Below are positions 52,437 through 64,000 of a DNA stretch of 64,000 nucleotides, piece by piece. Origin of the DNA: Faecalibacterium sp. I3-3-33. Lineage in GTDB: Bacteria; Bacillota; Clostridia; Oscillospirales; Ruminococcaceae. A program made the translations under genes and the position numbers. The stretch is from contig NZ_CP094469.1 of NCBI RefSeq assembly GCF_023347295.1, positions 992,001-1,056,000 of the forward strand, read 5' to 3'. Under the pieces are notes generated by a model, which had not been told where the DNA came from, ran no database searches, and worked only from the letters and a program-made list of their open reading frames with translations. Each line of letters starts with the position of its first letter. Position 1 is the stretch's first letter.

Positions 52437-52500
52437 AGGGCGCAATTATACACCATTCCGGTGAAATTGCGGTCTTGCAGACGGCTCGATGAAATCGAAG

Positions 52501-52568
52501 CTGGCGTTTGTGCGCCAGCCCGATTCCATCCCAAGGAAAACTGCATTTTCCTTGCGCTGCTTTGCAGC
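52501..52568 (+). repeat. cluster of inverted repeats before the relaxase (candidate oriT)
   Basis: Three hairpins in 68 bases: CTGGCG/CGCCAG (52501-52518), CAAGGAAAA/TTTTCCTTG (52532-52554, perfect, 5-base loop) and GCTGC/GCAGC (52556-52568). They lie in the non-coding gap between the accessory gene and the relaxase gene, the usual place of oriT for MobA/MobL systems. A nic site cannot be named from sequence alone. Confidence 0.45.
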
Positions 52569-52648
52569 TATCCTTTTGCGGCTCCCGCCTGAAACCGAAG
52601 CGCACAGCACTCCGTTCCAAGGTGGCGAGCACAACCGAATACGATTCC

Positions 52649-52688
52649 AGACCGTTCACAAGAGCAATCTTGTTGGGCGGTCTTTTTG
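52649..52688 (+). terminator. intrinsic terminator directly before the relaxase gene
   Basis: AGACCG pairs with CGGTCT around an inner ACAAGA/TCTTGT hairpin, followed by TTTTG. The T-run ends about 12 bases before the relaxase start. Confidence 0.7.
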
Positions 52689-52698
52689 TTTGGGGGTG

Positions 52699-54153
52699 AT
52701 GCCTATTCCGTGTCCGCATTTCAAAATCACCATCGTCAAGCGCAGCCAAGGGCAGTCCGCTGTTGCCGGGGCCGCTTACCAAAGCGGCGAACGGCTATTC
52801 AGTGAGTACGACCAGAAAACGAAATTCTACAACAAGAAGAAAGAACTTGTCCACGCCGAGATCATGCTGCCGTCCCATGCGCCACCCGGATATGCAGACC
52901 GGGCAACGCTTTGGAACGCCGTGGAAGCCGTGGAGAACCAGTGGAACTCCCAGCTTGCCCGGCGCATCGTGCTGGCGTTTCCGGTGGAAGTCCCGAAAGA
53001 GCGGTATCTGTCCATGATAAAGGAATTCTGTCAGGAGCAGTTTGTTTCCAAGGGCATGATTGCCGACTTTGCCATTCACGACAAGGGAGATGGAAACCCA
53101 CACGCCCACATTCTGCTGACGCTCCGGGCAATGGACGAACACGGTAAATGGTTGCCGAAAGCCCGAAAGGTTTACGACCTTGACGAGAACGGCGAGCGCA
53201 TCCAGCTCCCCTCCGGCAACTGGAAGTGCCACAAGGAAAACACCGTGGACTGGAACGACCAGAAGTACGCCGAGGTCTGGCGGCATGGTTGGGAAACCAT
53301 CACCAACCGCTATCTGGAAGCTGCTGACCGCCCAGAGCGTGTTGATCTCCGCTCATTCGAGCGTCAGGGAGTGCAGCAGATTCCGACCGTGCATCTCGGC
53401 CCCGCTGCTCACCAGATGGAAAAGCGGGGAATCGAAACCTTTCTCGGAAATCTCAACCGGGATATTCGTGCAGCCAACAGCTTGATGCAGTCCATCCGCA
53501 GCACCATTCGTGGTCTGCAACACTGGATTGCAGACCTGACCGAAAAGAAGCAGATTCTTTTGGATGCACTGGAACAAGCCAAGGAGACAACGCTGTCCGA
53601 TCTGCTGGTGGACTATTTCAATCTCCGCAACGAACAGCGCAGCGATTGGTCTGGCAAGGCAAAACTGAAATGCACTGTCCGGGACTTTGAGGAAGTCAAA
53701 CGGGCGGTGGACTACCTGAAAGCCCATTCCTTGAACACCATCGAGGATTTGGACACCGCAATTTCTAACTTGAACCAGACTGCCGCCCCTCTCCGCAGAC
53801 AGTTGAAGCAGAACGAGAACCGGATGTGGGCAATCGCCCAGATCAAGGATGCTGCCGCCGTCCATGCCAAGTTGAAGCCCATCCACGATACCTTCATCAA
53901 AAAGAACTTCAAGCTGACCAAGGACGCTTATGCTGCCCAGCACAAGGAGGAGCTGGACACCTTTAATAAAGCTGTCCGCACCCTGATGAAGCTGAACGGC
54001 AGCACAGCGGTGGATTTTTCGGCATTGGATGCCGAATTTTCTGCGCTGCAATCCGGCAGCGCAGAGCTGCGCAGCCAACTGGAAACCTTGCAGCCGGACA
54101 TCTCCGCACTGAAAAATATCCGCAAGTATATCGACATGGTGCTGAATAAGTAG
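52699..54153 (+). CDS. MobA/MobL-family relaxase, ended by an in-frame TAG
   Basis: A 484-residue relaxase. The N-terminal region has ITIVKRSQGQSAVAGAAYQS and the catalytic Tyr region; motif III is HDKGDGNPHAHI with His135 and His137 binding the metal. The C-terminal 250 residues are helical. It should nick oriT and lead the DNA strand. The frame stops at TAG (54151-54153), but the same frame runs on for 40 more codons with sensible residues to a TAA at 54276. The lost tail is outside the catalytic domain. ATG at 52699 lies very close to GGGGG; GTG 52696 is an alternative. Confidence 0.88.
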   Translation: MPIPCPHFKITIVKRSQGQSAVAGAAYQSGERLFSEYDQKTKFYNKKKELVHAEIMLPSHAPPGYADRATLWNAVEAVENQWNSQLARRIVLAFPVEVPKERYLSMIKEFCQEQFVSKGMIADFAIHDKGDGNPHAHILLTLRAMDEHGKWLPKARKVYDLDENGERIQLPSGNWKCHKENTVDWNDQKYAEVWRHGWETITNRYLEAADRPERVDLRSFERQGVQQIPTVHLGPAAHQMEKRGIETFLGNLNRDIRAANSLMQSIRSTIRGLQHWIADLTEKKQILLDALEQAKETTLSDLLVDYFNLRNEQRSDWSGKAKLKCTVRDFEEVKRAVDYLKAHSLNTIEDLDTAISNLNQTAAPLRRQLKQNENRMWAIAQIKDAAAVHAKLKPIHDTFIKKNFKLTKDAYAAQHKEELDTFNKAVRTLMKLNGSTAVDFSALDAEFSALQSGSAELRSQLETLQPDISALKNIRKYIDMVLNK

Positions 54154-54276
54154 CAACTTTCCGTACCGGGCGACAAGACCTCGGAGAAAGAATCTGTGCT
54201 GAAGAAGCTGCATGAAGCCAAAGCCACCGCCGCCCCGAAGAGACCGGAGCAGCAGAAGAACACACCGGAACTTTAA
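54154..54276 (+). pseudogene. relaxase C-terminal tail behind the amber codon
   Basis: In the relaxase frame the codons after TAG read QLSVPGDKTSEKESVLKKLH then EAKATAAPKRPEQQ and end PEL before TAA. The charged composition continues that of the relaxase. The next gene starts 12 bases later with AGGAGG, so this tail was once the normal gene end. Confidence 0.6.
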
Positions 54277-54288
54277 GGAGGAAGGAAT

Positions 54289-56154
54289 ATGACCTACACG
54301 CAAGCCCAAATTGACCGTGCAAACGCCGCCAATCTGGAAGATTTTCTCCGTGCGCAGGGCGAAACGCTGGTGCGCAGCGGAAAAGAATATCGCTGGAAAG
54401 CTCACGACAGTCTGACCGTGTGCGGAAACAAATGGTTCCGGCACAGCCAGAGCAAGGGCGGCTATCCGGTCGATTTTGTGATGGAGTTTTACGGCAAGTC
54501 CTTCCCTGAAGCGGTGCAGATGCTGACCGGAGAGCTGGGTGGAGTCCAGCCGGAGGTTGACCCCACCCCCTCTCCGGCATTTCGCTTGCCGCTGCGGAAC
54601 GTCACCAATGCCAACATCCTGAACTATCTGACACAGGAACGTAAACTCAGCCCGTCACTGGTGAACTTCTTTGTTTCTACCGGTGACATCTATGAGGATG
54701 CCGCCCACCACAATGTGGTCTTTGTGGGACGGGATGCAGACGAACACCCACGCTATGCAAGCAGCCGTGGCATTTATGAGAAGTTCCGGCAGGATGCAGC
54801 CGGCGCAGAAAAGGCATTTGGCTTTGCCCATCGTGGCACCGACAAGCAGTTGCTGGTCTTTGAAGCCCCCATCGACCTGCTGTCCTTCATTGAGCTGTTT
54901 CCGAAAAACTGGCAGCAGCACAGTTATCTGGCACTGGGCGGCGTGTCTGCAAAGGCATTGCAGCAGTTTCTTTCTGAACGTCCGGACGTGGAGCGTGTGT
55001 TCCTCTGTCTGGATGCCGACAAAGCCGGAGAGGATGCCTGCAAGCGGCTGACGGCTCTGCTGCCGGACACCGTGAGCGTGACCCGCATCCAGCCCTGCAT
55101 GAAGGATTGGAACGATGTTTTGGTGCATCGGGCAGAAATCCTGAACCGGGATTATTTCAAAAGCACCGTTCTGAAAGAGCCGCCGAAAAAGGATTCTGTC
55201 AAGATCATTCGCATGAGCGACGTGGAGCTGACCCCGGTGGACTGGCTCTGGAAACCGTATCTTCCCTTTGGAAAGCTAAGTGTGCTGCAAGGAAATCCCG
55301 GTGAGGGAAAAACCTATTTTGCCATGCACCTTGCCGCCGCCTGCACCAACGGAAAACTGCTGCCCAACATGGAGCGTATGGAACCCTTCAACGTGATCTA
55401 CCAGACAGCAGAGGACGGTCTGGGCGATACGGTCAAGCCCCGCCTGATCGAAGCGGGTGCAGACCTTGACCGGGTGCTGGTCATTGACGACAGTGAGGTG
55501 CAGCTTACTCTTTCGGATGAACGAATTGAAAAAGCCATTATCGAGAACAACGCCCGACTGGTCATCATCGACCCGATCCAGGCGTATCTCGGTGCCGACG
55601 TGGACATGAACCGGGCAAACGAAGTGCGCCCTATCTTCATGCGGCTGGGACAGGTAGCGCAGCGAACAGGCTGCGCTATTTTGCTGATTGGACACCTGAA
55701 CAAAGCCGCCGGAATGCAGAGCCTGCAGAGGGGTCTCGGCTCCATCGACATCGCCGCCGCCGTGCGCAGCGTCCTGTTCATCGGCAAACTTAAGCACGAC
55801 CCGACCATGCGCATCCTCACCCACGAGAAAAGCTCCCTTGCCCCGCCGGGCGTGTCGCTGGCGTTCTCTCTTGGGGACGAGGGTGGCTTCCGCTGGGTCG
55901 GCGAGTACGACATTACCGCAGACGAAATGCTGTCCGGCATCGAGCCGCAGCGGGAAACCAAAACGCAGCAGGCTAAAGACCTGATTTGCACCCTGCTTGC
56001 CGGAGGAAAGCAGGTGTTCAGCGAGGACATCGACAAGGCGGCGCTGGAAAGGGGCATCCCCGGCCGAACTGTCCGGGATGCCAAGCGGGAACTGGGCGAT
56101 GCCCTGAAAAGCAAGATCGTGGAAGGCCGCAAAAAGGTCTTTTGGATGGAATGA
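54289..56154 (+). CDS. primase-helicase: zinc/TOPRIM-type primase fused to RepA-like AAA_25 helicase
   Basis: A 621-residue fusion. Residues 1-100 have a CHC2-like zinc-binding-type start (DFLRAQGETLVRSGKEYRWK and WFRHSQSKGGYPVDFVM); 100-290 fit DUF3991 plus a TOPRIM fold (LLVFEAPIDLLSF, FLCLDADKAGED). After residue 310 comes a RecA-fold helicase: Walker A GNPGEGKTYFAM, Walker B LVIIDPIQAYLG, and LLIGHLNKAAG, like RepA of RSF1010. A short winged helix ends the protein. It probably primes and unwinds the element's circular or transferred strand. AGGAGG precedes ATG 54289. Confidence 0.85.
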   Translation: MTYTQAQIDRANAANLEDFLRAQGETLVRSGKEYRWKAHDSLTVCGNKWFRHSQSKGGYPVDFVMEFYGKSFPEAVQMLTGELGGVQPEVDPTPSPAFRLPLRNVTNANILNYLTQERKLSPSLVNFFVSTGDIYEDAAHHNVVFVGRDADEHPRYASSRGIYEKFRQDAAGAEKAFGFAHRGTDKQLLVFEAPIDLLSFIELFPKNWQQHSYLALGGVSAKALQQFLSERPDVERVFLCLDADKAGEDACKRLTALLPDTVSVTRIQPCMKDWNDVLVHRAEILNRDYFKSTVLKEPPKKDSVKIIRMSDVELTPVDWLWKPYLPFGKLSVLQGNPGEGKTYFAMHLAAACTNGKLLPNMERMEPFNVIYQTAEDGLGDTVKPRLIEAGADLDRVLVIDDSEVQLTLSDERIEKAIIENNARLVIIDPIQAYLGADVDMNRANEVRPIFMRLGQVAQRTGCAILLIGHLNKAAGMQSLQRGLGSIDIAAAVRSVLFIGKLKHDPTMRILTHEKSSLAPPGVSLAFSLGDEGGFRWVGEYDITADEMLSGIEPQRETKTQQAKDLICTLLAGGKQVFSEDIDKAALERGIPGRTVRDAKRELGDALKSKIVEGRKKVFWME

Positions 56155-62493: not shown

Positions 62494-62522
62494 TACCCTA
62501 AAATCTGAAAAAGGAGGCCAAA

Positions 62523-64000
62523 ATGCCAAGCAAAACCGAAGAATACCTTGCCCTTGCCCAGCGCACGGCGAACGGCTTGACTCGGTACTGGGAAAGCTGG
62601 ACGGATTACCTGACCACTGCATCCCGGCTGTACAAGTACAGTTTTGCAGACCAGTTGATGATCTACGCTCAGCGACCCGATGCCACAGCCTGCGCCGATT
62701 ACGACATCTGGAACAACCGCATGAACCGGTATGTCCGGCGTGGCTCCAAGGGCATCGCCCTGTTGGACGAATCCAGCGGATACCCGCGTCTGCACTATGT
62801 GTTTGATGTGTCGGACACCGGAGTACGGCGCAATTCTCGCGACCCGGAACGATGGGAAATGAATGACGACCTTTTCAAGCCGGTGTCTGAGATGCTGACC
62901 GCAGAATACGGCATCAGCCATGAACGGCTCAGCCAGCAGCTCGTAAATATTGCGGAGAAGCTGGTTAACGATTATTGGGACAACAACAGCGGCGACATCC
63001 TCAACATCGTTGACGGCTCTTTCTTTGATGATTATGATAGTAGTGGAAAGGAACTTCAGTTCAAGGCCGCTGCGACAATGAGCGTCACCTACACTCTATT
63101 AGAACGATGCGGGTTTGAACCGGAAGGCTACTTTGACAAGGATGACTTTCAGGCCATCCACACCTTTTCCACACCCGATGCAGTCTATGCGCTGGGTGCC
63201 GCTACCAGCGACATCAGCCGCGAGGTCTTACGCAAAATCGAGCGCACCGTAAAAACCACCATCCGCCGCCGAAACAATGAAAGGAGTCAGCATGAATATG
63301 AGCAGCAATCTGAACTACACGCAGACCGGGGATTACCTTCTCCCGAACCTGACCCTGAACCAGCCCCGGAAGCCGCTGGGCAAGTACGGCAGGCTGTGCC
63401 GGACGTATCTGATGAACCATCGCCCGGTACTGTACAACACGATGCTCCTGAACGGGAGCCTGTACCCGCACCTGATGGAGGTGGAGCAGACGGCAGAGAG
63501 CCGGATGCAGCAGATGATGGCCGAACTGCTGAAGCAGAACCCGGCCCCGGACAAAGCGCAGAACCAACTGATGTGGGTGCAGCACATGAACAGTCTGAAA
63601 GCGCAGGCAGAGGAACTGGTGATGACGGAGCTGATCTACAGCTAAGTTTTCTGGATGCCGTCCTCCCCACCGAAGCCCAGCAAATCGAAAAAATCGACCG
63701 AGCGGAGAGCGAAAAAACGCCCTCCGCTTTTGTTTTGTCGCAGGCTGAAATTGAAAACGAACTGCGTAAGCATGGTTCTGGGTTTGCAGGTGGCAAGCAG
63801 CGCATTATGACACTGTACCAGACCCAGCCTGACCGCAAACTCCGTGCCAAAGCACTGGCAAAGGAGTACGGCATTGGTGGGCACTCCCACGATTTTCTGG
63901 ACGGAAGCCGGGGTTTTGTGAACCACGACTGGAAGGGACTGGAATTTGACCATTACCCTGACCACCAGAAAATCACCCTGAAATGGGCGCAGGTGGAAAA
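62523..64000 (+). CDS. N-terminal part of the giant helicase/methylase-type element protein (3' end outside the window)
   Basis: The frame is open from ATG 62523 (AAGGAGG 6 bases upstream) to the window edge, at least 492 codons. It starts EYLALAQRTANGLTRYWESW, then YKYSFADQLMIYAQRPDATA and NRYVRRGSKGIALLDESSG, the beginning of the very large element proteins that carry SNF2-like helicase and N6-adenine methylase domains (LtrC-like region). Residues about 257-375 are a Pro/Glu/Asp/Ala-rich, probably disordered linker, within which the complete tnpV gene lies in another frame. After it, LSQAEIENELRKHGSGFAGG and later GGHSHDFLDGSRGF continue the protein. The helicase part would be beyond the window. 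Confidence 0.8.
   Translation, partial: MPSKTEEYLALAQRTANGLTRYWESWTDYLTTASRLYKYSFADQLMIYAQRPDATACADYDIWNNRMNRYVRRGSKGIALLDESSGYPRLHYVFDVSDTGVRRNSRDPERWEMNDDLFKPVSEMLTAEYGISHERLSQQLVNIAEKLVNDYWDNNSGDILNIVDGSFFDDYDSSGKELQFKAAATMSVTYTLLERCGFEPEGYFDKDDFQAIHTFSTPDAVYALGAATSDISREVLRKIERTVKTTIRRRNNERSQHEYEQQSELHADRGLPSPEPDPEPAPEAAGQVRQAVPDVSDEPSPGTVQHDAPEREPVPAPDGGGADGREPDAADDGRTAEAEPGPGQSAEPTDVGAAHEQSESAGRGTGDDGADLQLSFLDAVLPTEAQQIEKIDRAESEKTPSAFVLSQAEIENELRKHGSGFAGGKQRIMTLYQTQPDRKLRAKALAKEYGIGGHSHDFLDGSRGFVNHDWKGLEFDHYPDHQKITLKWAQVE
63292..63645 (+). CDS. TnpV-family protein encoded inside the giant gene in another frame
   Basis: A 117-residue TnpV protein (YLLPNLTLNQPRKPLGKYGR, CRTYLMNHRPVLYN, AQAEELVMTELIYS), clearly homologous to the protein at 38730. 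It has its own ribosome binding site, AAAGGAG 5 bases before ATG 63292. The whole gene overlaps the linker of the giant protein, whose frame stays open without a stop through the same 354 bases. Confidence 0.75.
   Translation: MNMSSNLNYTQTGDYLLPNLTLNQPRKPLGKYGRLCRTYLMNHRPVLYNTMLLNGSLYPHLMEVEQTAESRMQQMMAELLKQNPAPDKAQNQLMWVQHMNSLKAQAEELVMTELIYS

Follow-up and report, generated by a model that had tools for sequence, protein, structure and literature searches.

Long same-strand dual coding is thought to be rare in bacteria. The overlapping genes of Escherichia coli O157:H7 described in the available text of PMC4683798 and PMC7103648 are, like the pair reported here, long bacterial overlaps omitted by annotation; they are, however, described as recent in origin or antisense, as are others of this kind, whereas in our pair, conserved across classes, both genes lie on one strand and one belongs to a Pfam family. 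A similar layout is known from the hepatitis B polymerase. According to the available text of PMC9093120, the domains of this large replication protein are separated by a presumably disordered spacer, over which a surface gene runs in another frame. That overlap belongs to a compact viral genome, whereas the present one belongs to a mobile element of bacteria and recurs across many bacterial families.

Both proteins of the pair have described relatives. For TnpV of Tn4451, a role in excision has been postulated from homology with lambda Xis (PMC3158075, available part). The TnpV studied here belongs to the same PF14198 family as those of Tn4451-type elements, and free copies in our data often stand behind a large serine recombinase. 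The cases in the portion of the literature available are free genes; here, in contrast, tnpV lies wholly within another coding frame, apparently the older state. The second protein, a giant, appears to have an architecture of the same type as the polyvalent, DarB-like proteins with ArdC-N, adenine methylase, and SWI2/SNF2 parts. In the available text of PMC5512222, ArdC-N-bearing polyvalent proteins are proposed to enter the recipient with the DNA and to protect it. A word search of that text found neither "TnpV" nor "overlapping" (0 uses each), and a second protein in the linker is not mentioned there. Our literature searches returned nothing that joins overlapping genes, TnpV, and such giants. 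Each of these is already known by itself.

The nested gene and its giant host

The window analyzed is a stretch of 64,000 nucleotides from Faecalibacterium sp. I3-3-33 (NZ_CP094469.1, positions 992,001 to 1,056,000). The following features were found toward its end.

62510..62517, + strand: AAAGGAGG, Shine-Dalgarno-like, of the giant gene (direct reading)
62523..64000, + strand: giant gene, codons 1-492 in the window (ORF list and sequence; ATG at 62523)
62523..63290, + strand: ArdC-like N-terminal region of the giant (alignment A1 of 24 sequences; an aligned relative is annotated as ArdC-like)
63280..63286, + strand: AAAGGAG ribosome-binding site of the nested tnpV, within giant codons (read directly)
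63291..63647, + strand: Pro/Glu/Ala/Gly-rich linker of the giant, approximately residues 257-375, on the same DNA as tnpV (0 stops; T-avoidance and codon-position reversal in relatives)
63292..63645, + strand: nested tnpV, 117 aa plus stop, frame +1 relative to the giant (PF14198, 8e-36)
63648..64000, + strand: giant downstream of the overlap, including HGSGFAGGKQRI...KEYGIGGHS (resembles by eye a stretch of the tnpV-less Lactococcus L226)

The phase of +1 follows from the distance between the two starts (63292-62523 = 769; 769 mod 3 = 1), and no stop interrupts this frame between 63253 and the TAA at 63643-63645, a total of 130 codons. PF14198 was matched by residues 13-120 with 122.8 bits (cut-off, 27), over profile positions 1-111 of 111. 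Among the candidate ATGs, that at 63292 is the most likely start; another lies at 63298, and the ATG at 63277 is upstream of the Shine-Dalgarno (SD) site. Across the TnpV domain, the third frame contains 18 stops at this locus. The sequence-only reading had described tnpV as nested on the same strand in another frame, with its own ribosome-binding site and with the giant frame kept open, and this was borne out by the open reading frames, the Pfam match, and 152 compiled loci. Together with the recurrence in these 152 nested loci, the 18 third-frame stops indicate that the double openness is not due to chance. A sequencing or assembly error, which the same reading had named as a possible refutation, is excluded by recurrence in many independent assemblies. 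NCBIfam gave no match to the TnpV frame or to the 492 giant residues in the window. The genome, one contig of 2,994,777 bases, holds six TnpV places, comprising five free genes and the nested copy.

The giant frame is open to the end of the window and runs beyond it to G000:C1:1060450, giving 1976 aa in total. Pfam matches to SNF2-related (PF00176; 34.3 bits, cut-off 24.9) and MutS_I domains were above the cut-offs, that to the Eco57I methylase was below (21.6 bits, cut-off 25.3), and no ArdC match was obtained for the window's giant at E 0.01. Many of the giant's relatives among the tblastn matches listed are annotated as methylase or SNF2. The giant frames of relatives reach approximately 2400-2580 aa versus 1976 aa in this genome; the giant is interrupted downstream here, and function at this copy is therefore doubtful.

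Outside the window, the giant frame stops where a large serine recombinase gene starts (L007:7378-9992, G000:C1 ~1060377-1062991). A free tnpV follows that recombinase in L007 and overlaps its stop codon. The available text of PMC12942858 describes snf2 genes as insertion targets of ICEs. Two ORFs of the window, at 52489 and 54289 (52489-56154), recur in slightly diverged form at L007:15920-19000, past the recombinase element, so that two related elements seem to be close neighbors.

Recurrence of the pair and selection on its two frames

The 152 nested loci, mostly from Bacillota elements, were compiled from several searches, including the best 80 of 555 relatives in a named genome collection. 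They share one place and one phase, with 0 stops in the giant frame. A giant frame broken over tnpV, which in the earlier reading would have pointed to two separate genes, was seen in 0 of 152 loci.

Giant residues 1-492 were matched in 43 of 197 genomes of the same family, our own included. TnpV occupied the same relative frame in 30 of the 32 same-family loci scanned; the exceptions without TnpV, L013 and L014, are partial matches (residues 10-82) in 1079-aa frames and not such giants. The giant frame was stop-free across TnpV in 30/30 loci, and the third frame had 4-18 stops. Same-family matches beyond the fetched loci were partly covered, by coordinate comparison and by fetching 18 further loci. 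Addition of more regions gave 56 giant loci with a nested TnpV, including L025, which was counted by hand because a contig end falls there. The label "nested" in this set demanded an open giant frame and was rechecked with a profile of the giant N terminus. This profile matched 56/56 nested and 0/48 stand-alone loci, so the label is not circular. The 49 stand-alone rows represent 48 places, the second copy in L007 being that of L002.

In a sample of the phylum, the N-terminal alignment matched 29 of 398 genomes, and 30 loci were fetched. Seventeen of 18 giants (own included) had a nested TnpV in the same phase and one, L139 (later L258), had none; the 12 other loci were shorter or partial matches without TnpV. 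Two extra loci that were fetched, L260 and L261, both had tnpV, and several other matches lay outside the fetched set. No openness filter was applied to the named collection, in which 80/80 loci had TnpV in the same phase and no giant-frame stop; these are the best 80 of 555 relatives, so that close relatives dominate. The TnpV domain was complete in 79 of these best 80, with L176 ending at its contig, and their titles included Faecalibacterium, Roseburia, Blautia, Holdemania, and Collinsella, among others.

Through a tblastn search of plasmids, nested TnpV was located in Cohnella, Virgibacillus, Enterococcus faecalis, Listeria seeligeri, Listeria monocytogenes, Monoglobus, Carnobacterium, and Ruminococcus albus, the last being a weak match (6e-7). 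Diverged nested frames with a strong SD were found in Streptococcus agalactiae L263 (a weak match to the TnpV profile, 1.5e-2), Anaerococcus L264, Enterococcus wangshanyuanii L262, and E. faecalis L224. When loci were collected by a methylase search, tnpV was in the same frame as the methylase in 65 of 69 genome-contig loci. In the remaining four (L153, L157, L193, and L216), the giant frame was broken between tnpV and the methylase, with the nested tnpV upstream. The pair also exposes a blind spot of annotation, with several giants of Bacilli recorded without TnpV. For Virgibacillus, Enterococcus, L. seeligeri, R. albus, and Carnobacterium, the annotation has an SNF2 giant but not TnpV; for Cohnella and Monoglobus, it has TnpV but not the giant, in a gene table that omits pseudogenes.

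A T at the end of a TnpV codon creates a stop in the giant frame if the next codon begins with AA, AG, or GA. Use of such codons was compared in a nonredundant set of 87 nested and 33 stand-alone copies; rows shorter than 85 aa or with the TnpV domain interrupted by a stop were removed before clustering at 90%, which keeps related sequences, so that the counts are not independent events. Nested copies had T in 0 of 922 pyrimidine-ending codons before AA, AG, or GA and in 866 of 2492 elsewhere. The corresponding values for stand-alone copies were 154/460 and, before other codons, 630/1336. Over the 87 nested copies, 0 giant-frame stops were observed, versus 195.8 expected from synonymous shuffling and 537 from flank codon usage; stops in the third frame were near expectation (1040 versus 1004). 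In nine diverged nested frames, several of them AT-rich, T was present in 0 of 93 stop-making places versus 111/228. The frame equivalent to the giant's contained a median of 4 stops in stand-alone copies, and 5 of 49 rows had none. It could be argued that TnpV alone is made, the giant frame being open by base composition and the giant really being two proteins, as the Cohnella and Monoglobus records might suggest. However, the zero counts of stop-making T in nested copies and diverged frames, set against the frequency in stand-alone copies, make this very unlikely.

Codon-position variability was measured in 106 pairs of 70-99% flank identity. In the flanks of the giant it decreased in the order p3 (0.406) > p1 (0.165) > p2 (0.118). 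In the overlap of the same pairs the order was p1 > p2 > p3, with 0.291 at giant p1 and 0.126 at giant p3, which is TnpV position 2. A codon-position check in both frames had been proposed in the sequence-only reading. Giant p3 is least variable in the overlap, reflecting TnpV constraint, and stop-making T is avoided, reflecting giant constraint. At 60-75% identity, change at TnpV position 3 was 0.383 in nested (308 pairs) versus 0.535 in stand-alone copies (26 pairs), as expected if the giant frame adds constraint.

A strong SD preceded the nested start in 65 of 87 copies versus 31 of 261 same-phase background windows; the other 22/87 were without one by the criterion used. The spacing was 8 nt in 48 of the 65. 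GGAG fell into three registers of giant codons (58, 4, and 3 copies), which argues that the SD site, and not the giant peptide, is conserved. This bears on programmed frameshifting, by which the N-terminal part of the giant would be fused to TnpV. Such a fusion would suit the +1 frame of TnpV and the loci L020 and L021, where the TnpV frame is open for more than 100 codons upstream, but in most of the 30 loci it is open for a few to some tens of codons, and the start codon with its SD is conserved. We regard frameshifting as extremely unlikely.

Taken together, T-avoidance, the codon-position reversal, and the conserved SD make both frames look selected. Comparison among relatives shows that the TnpV frame bears amino-acid constraint and that the giant frame is held open. 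At the level of sequence, one DNA stretch appears to encode two proteins across elements of many bacteria. A pair conserved over elements of many families opens old dual coding to study with strong statistics.

Ancestry of nested and free tnpV

A tree was built from 120 TnpV domains. All of its deepest branches were nested, and stand-alone copies formed several groups inside. Eight state changes were needed, at least four of them forced by well-supported branches. A single clade of stand-alone copies was rejected (p-AU 0.0077) in a test that compared two trees only. The tree is based on 116 columns and is midpoint-rooted with a weakly supported base (43/76), so that the nested-to-free direction rests on parsimony. 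Repeated insertion is implausible given the single position and phase common to the nested copies, and most changes were therefore read as escapes.

The sequence-only reading had offered insertion of a mobile tnpV into the giant, in a register that chanced to keep the frame open. Free tnpV genes do exist, and in 20 of the 48 loci a large serine recombinase frame precedes them (19 of these within 30 nt; one query, short flanks); giants without tnpV exist as well. One position and phase in 152 loci would, however, need a single very old event, and the nested deepest branches, the rejection of a single stand-alone clade, and the placement of three tnpV-less giants inside a tnpV-bearing clade (see below) also speak against it. 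With stand-alone copies falling inside nested diversity, a recent insertion into the linker found no support, and we consider insertion as a whole improbable.

Four giants without tnpV were found, namely, Lactococcus L226, E. faecalis L230 and L266, and L258, and tnpV is therefore not indispensable. The first three were found through the methylase domain and L258 by the methylase and N-terminal domains; among the giants that had been found by their N-terminal domain and were examined for tnpV, L258 alone lacks it. The N-terminal profile matches all four. Relatives lacking exactly the linker segment had been suggested as a check, and L226 has the post-overlap sequence (GSGIAEGKFRI versus GSGFAGGKQRI, by eye) and no TnpV-coding stretch. 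In a methylase tree of 49 of the 97 loci with a methylase match, thinned by hand, L226, L230, and L266 fell within the tnpV-bearing clade, which points to loss. L258 was placed without resolution, and L224 and L226 were flagged as long branches that meet, which leaves the placement of L226 unsure. A break in the giant frame ahead of the methylase led to a score of "none" for L265, which was not counted as tnpV-less.

These comparisons support, with less certainty, a nested state that would be ancestral in the Bacillota giant family, with few losses and several escapes of tnpV, often to a place behind a large serine recombinase. If free TnpV copies are escapees, they would provide a testable route from an overprinted gene to an independent mobile protein family; if the overprinting origin is true, a widespread protein family descends from a gene within a gene.

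Some free copies have other neighbors. In L082 and L084, a free tnpV stands directly behind the helicase part of a giant (in L084, 62-66% identical to other giants). The gene downstream of tnpV in these loci is presumably a ribosome-protection tetracycline-resistance gene. According to the available text of PMC11913394, 8 of 10 Roseburia intestinalis genomes carry tnpV directly ahead of tet(O). In L071 (G140:C6:2705544-2705864), a free tnpV match lies in an 847-aa open frame, as if fused to another protein.

Outgroup giants and the proposed partnership

Small genes in the +1 phase were also found in a low-complexity stretch before the methylase in some outgroup giants without the ArdC-like part, from Enterobacter hormaechei (L223), Campylobacter jejuni (L229), Pseudomonas syringae (L269), and Burkholderia (L270). 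The giant frame of L269 and L270 extends without a stop ahead of the point where the giant is annotated to start; in L270 it is short (456 codons). Only frames without start-plus-SD were present in L227, L231, and L232, and inspection of L267 (darB) and L268 revealed no small +1 frame of note; a nested small gene is therefore not universal in outgroup giants. Compared with shuffles, openness was clearly beyond chance in L229 (0/2000 open) and likely so in L223 (0.013), and did not reach this level in L269 (0.06), L259 (0.29), and L270 (0.44). A profile search with the outgroup small protein yielded 495 relatives, with a Pfam domain in none of the 120 matches listed. A profile comparison of this protein with TnpV was not significant; the predicted helices of the two have a similar layout.

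Further frames of this kind were noted. L259 (G520), a very long giant without the ArdC-like start, has at residue 1291 a 111-codon +1 frame with SD-like sites before the methylase. It matched TnpV weakly (1.5e-3), and its openness alone could be chance. In L228 (Mycobacterium dioxanotrophicus plasmid), a small annotated +1 gene stands directly before the start annotated for the giant, whose frame has no stop across this gene. A Helicobacter suis plasmid (L271) encodes, in phase +1 within an annotated stop-free CDS, a relative of the protein nested in the Campylobacter giant.

The outgroup giants bear on another history, in which a separate tnpV stood between ardC-like and methylase-helicase genes and the flanking genes were fused through it in the other frame. 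Dual coding would then be real, only the linker would be new, and neither protein would have been born by overprinting. In favor of this, the linker sequence is dictated by the TnpV codons, the ArdC-like part and the methylase part form distinct domains, and outgroup giants begin shortly upstream of the methylase. However, the unfused ardC-tnpV-methylase arrangement was not met among loci examined for other purposes, and the nested +1 small gene before the methylase in some outgroup giants without the ArdC part would, if homologous to TnpV, mean that the overlap predates the fusion. We treat a fusion as a serious possibility that falls somewhat short of probable. With still less confidence, and only tentatively, we propose a class of mobile-element methylase-SNF2 giants, from Bacillota to Pseudomonadota/Campylobacterota, with a small helical protein overprinted (+1) in the disordered stretch before the methylase, in which the TnpV family was born and from which it was several times freed.

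The explanation that we favor as a whole, and consider highly probable, is a true dual-coding (overprinted) pair; ancestral nesting and escapes are a less certain part of it. The giant would be a polyvalent ArdC-like/methylase/SNF2 protein of an integrative or conjugative element, and TnpV, a small helical protein, would be encoded in the +1 frame of a flexible linker after its N-terminal domain. Initiation of tnpV would occur from its own internal SD site on the giant's mRNA, other ribosomes translating the same bases as the disordered linker, and one message would give both proteins, always travelling together. We propose, with low certainty, that nested TnpV is a helper or regulator of the giant, produced alongside it and active during DNA transfer or establishment; copies outside giants would have been recruited by recombinase elements. 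The association suggests that TnpV acts with a giant methylase-helicase, a kind of protein thought, in the available text of PMC5512222, to protect incoming element DNA.

An AlphaFold2 model of TnpV consists of a hairpin and four helices (pLDDT 88.9). A fold search with this model gave no confident match, lambda Xis-type excisionase included. One viral protein model of 1093 residues, BFVD Q8W6J4_2, contains a stretch that weakly resembles TnpV (prob 0.94, E 0.82, TM 0.49).
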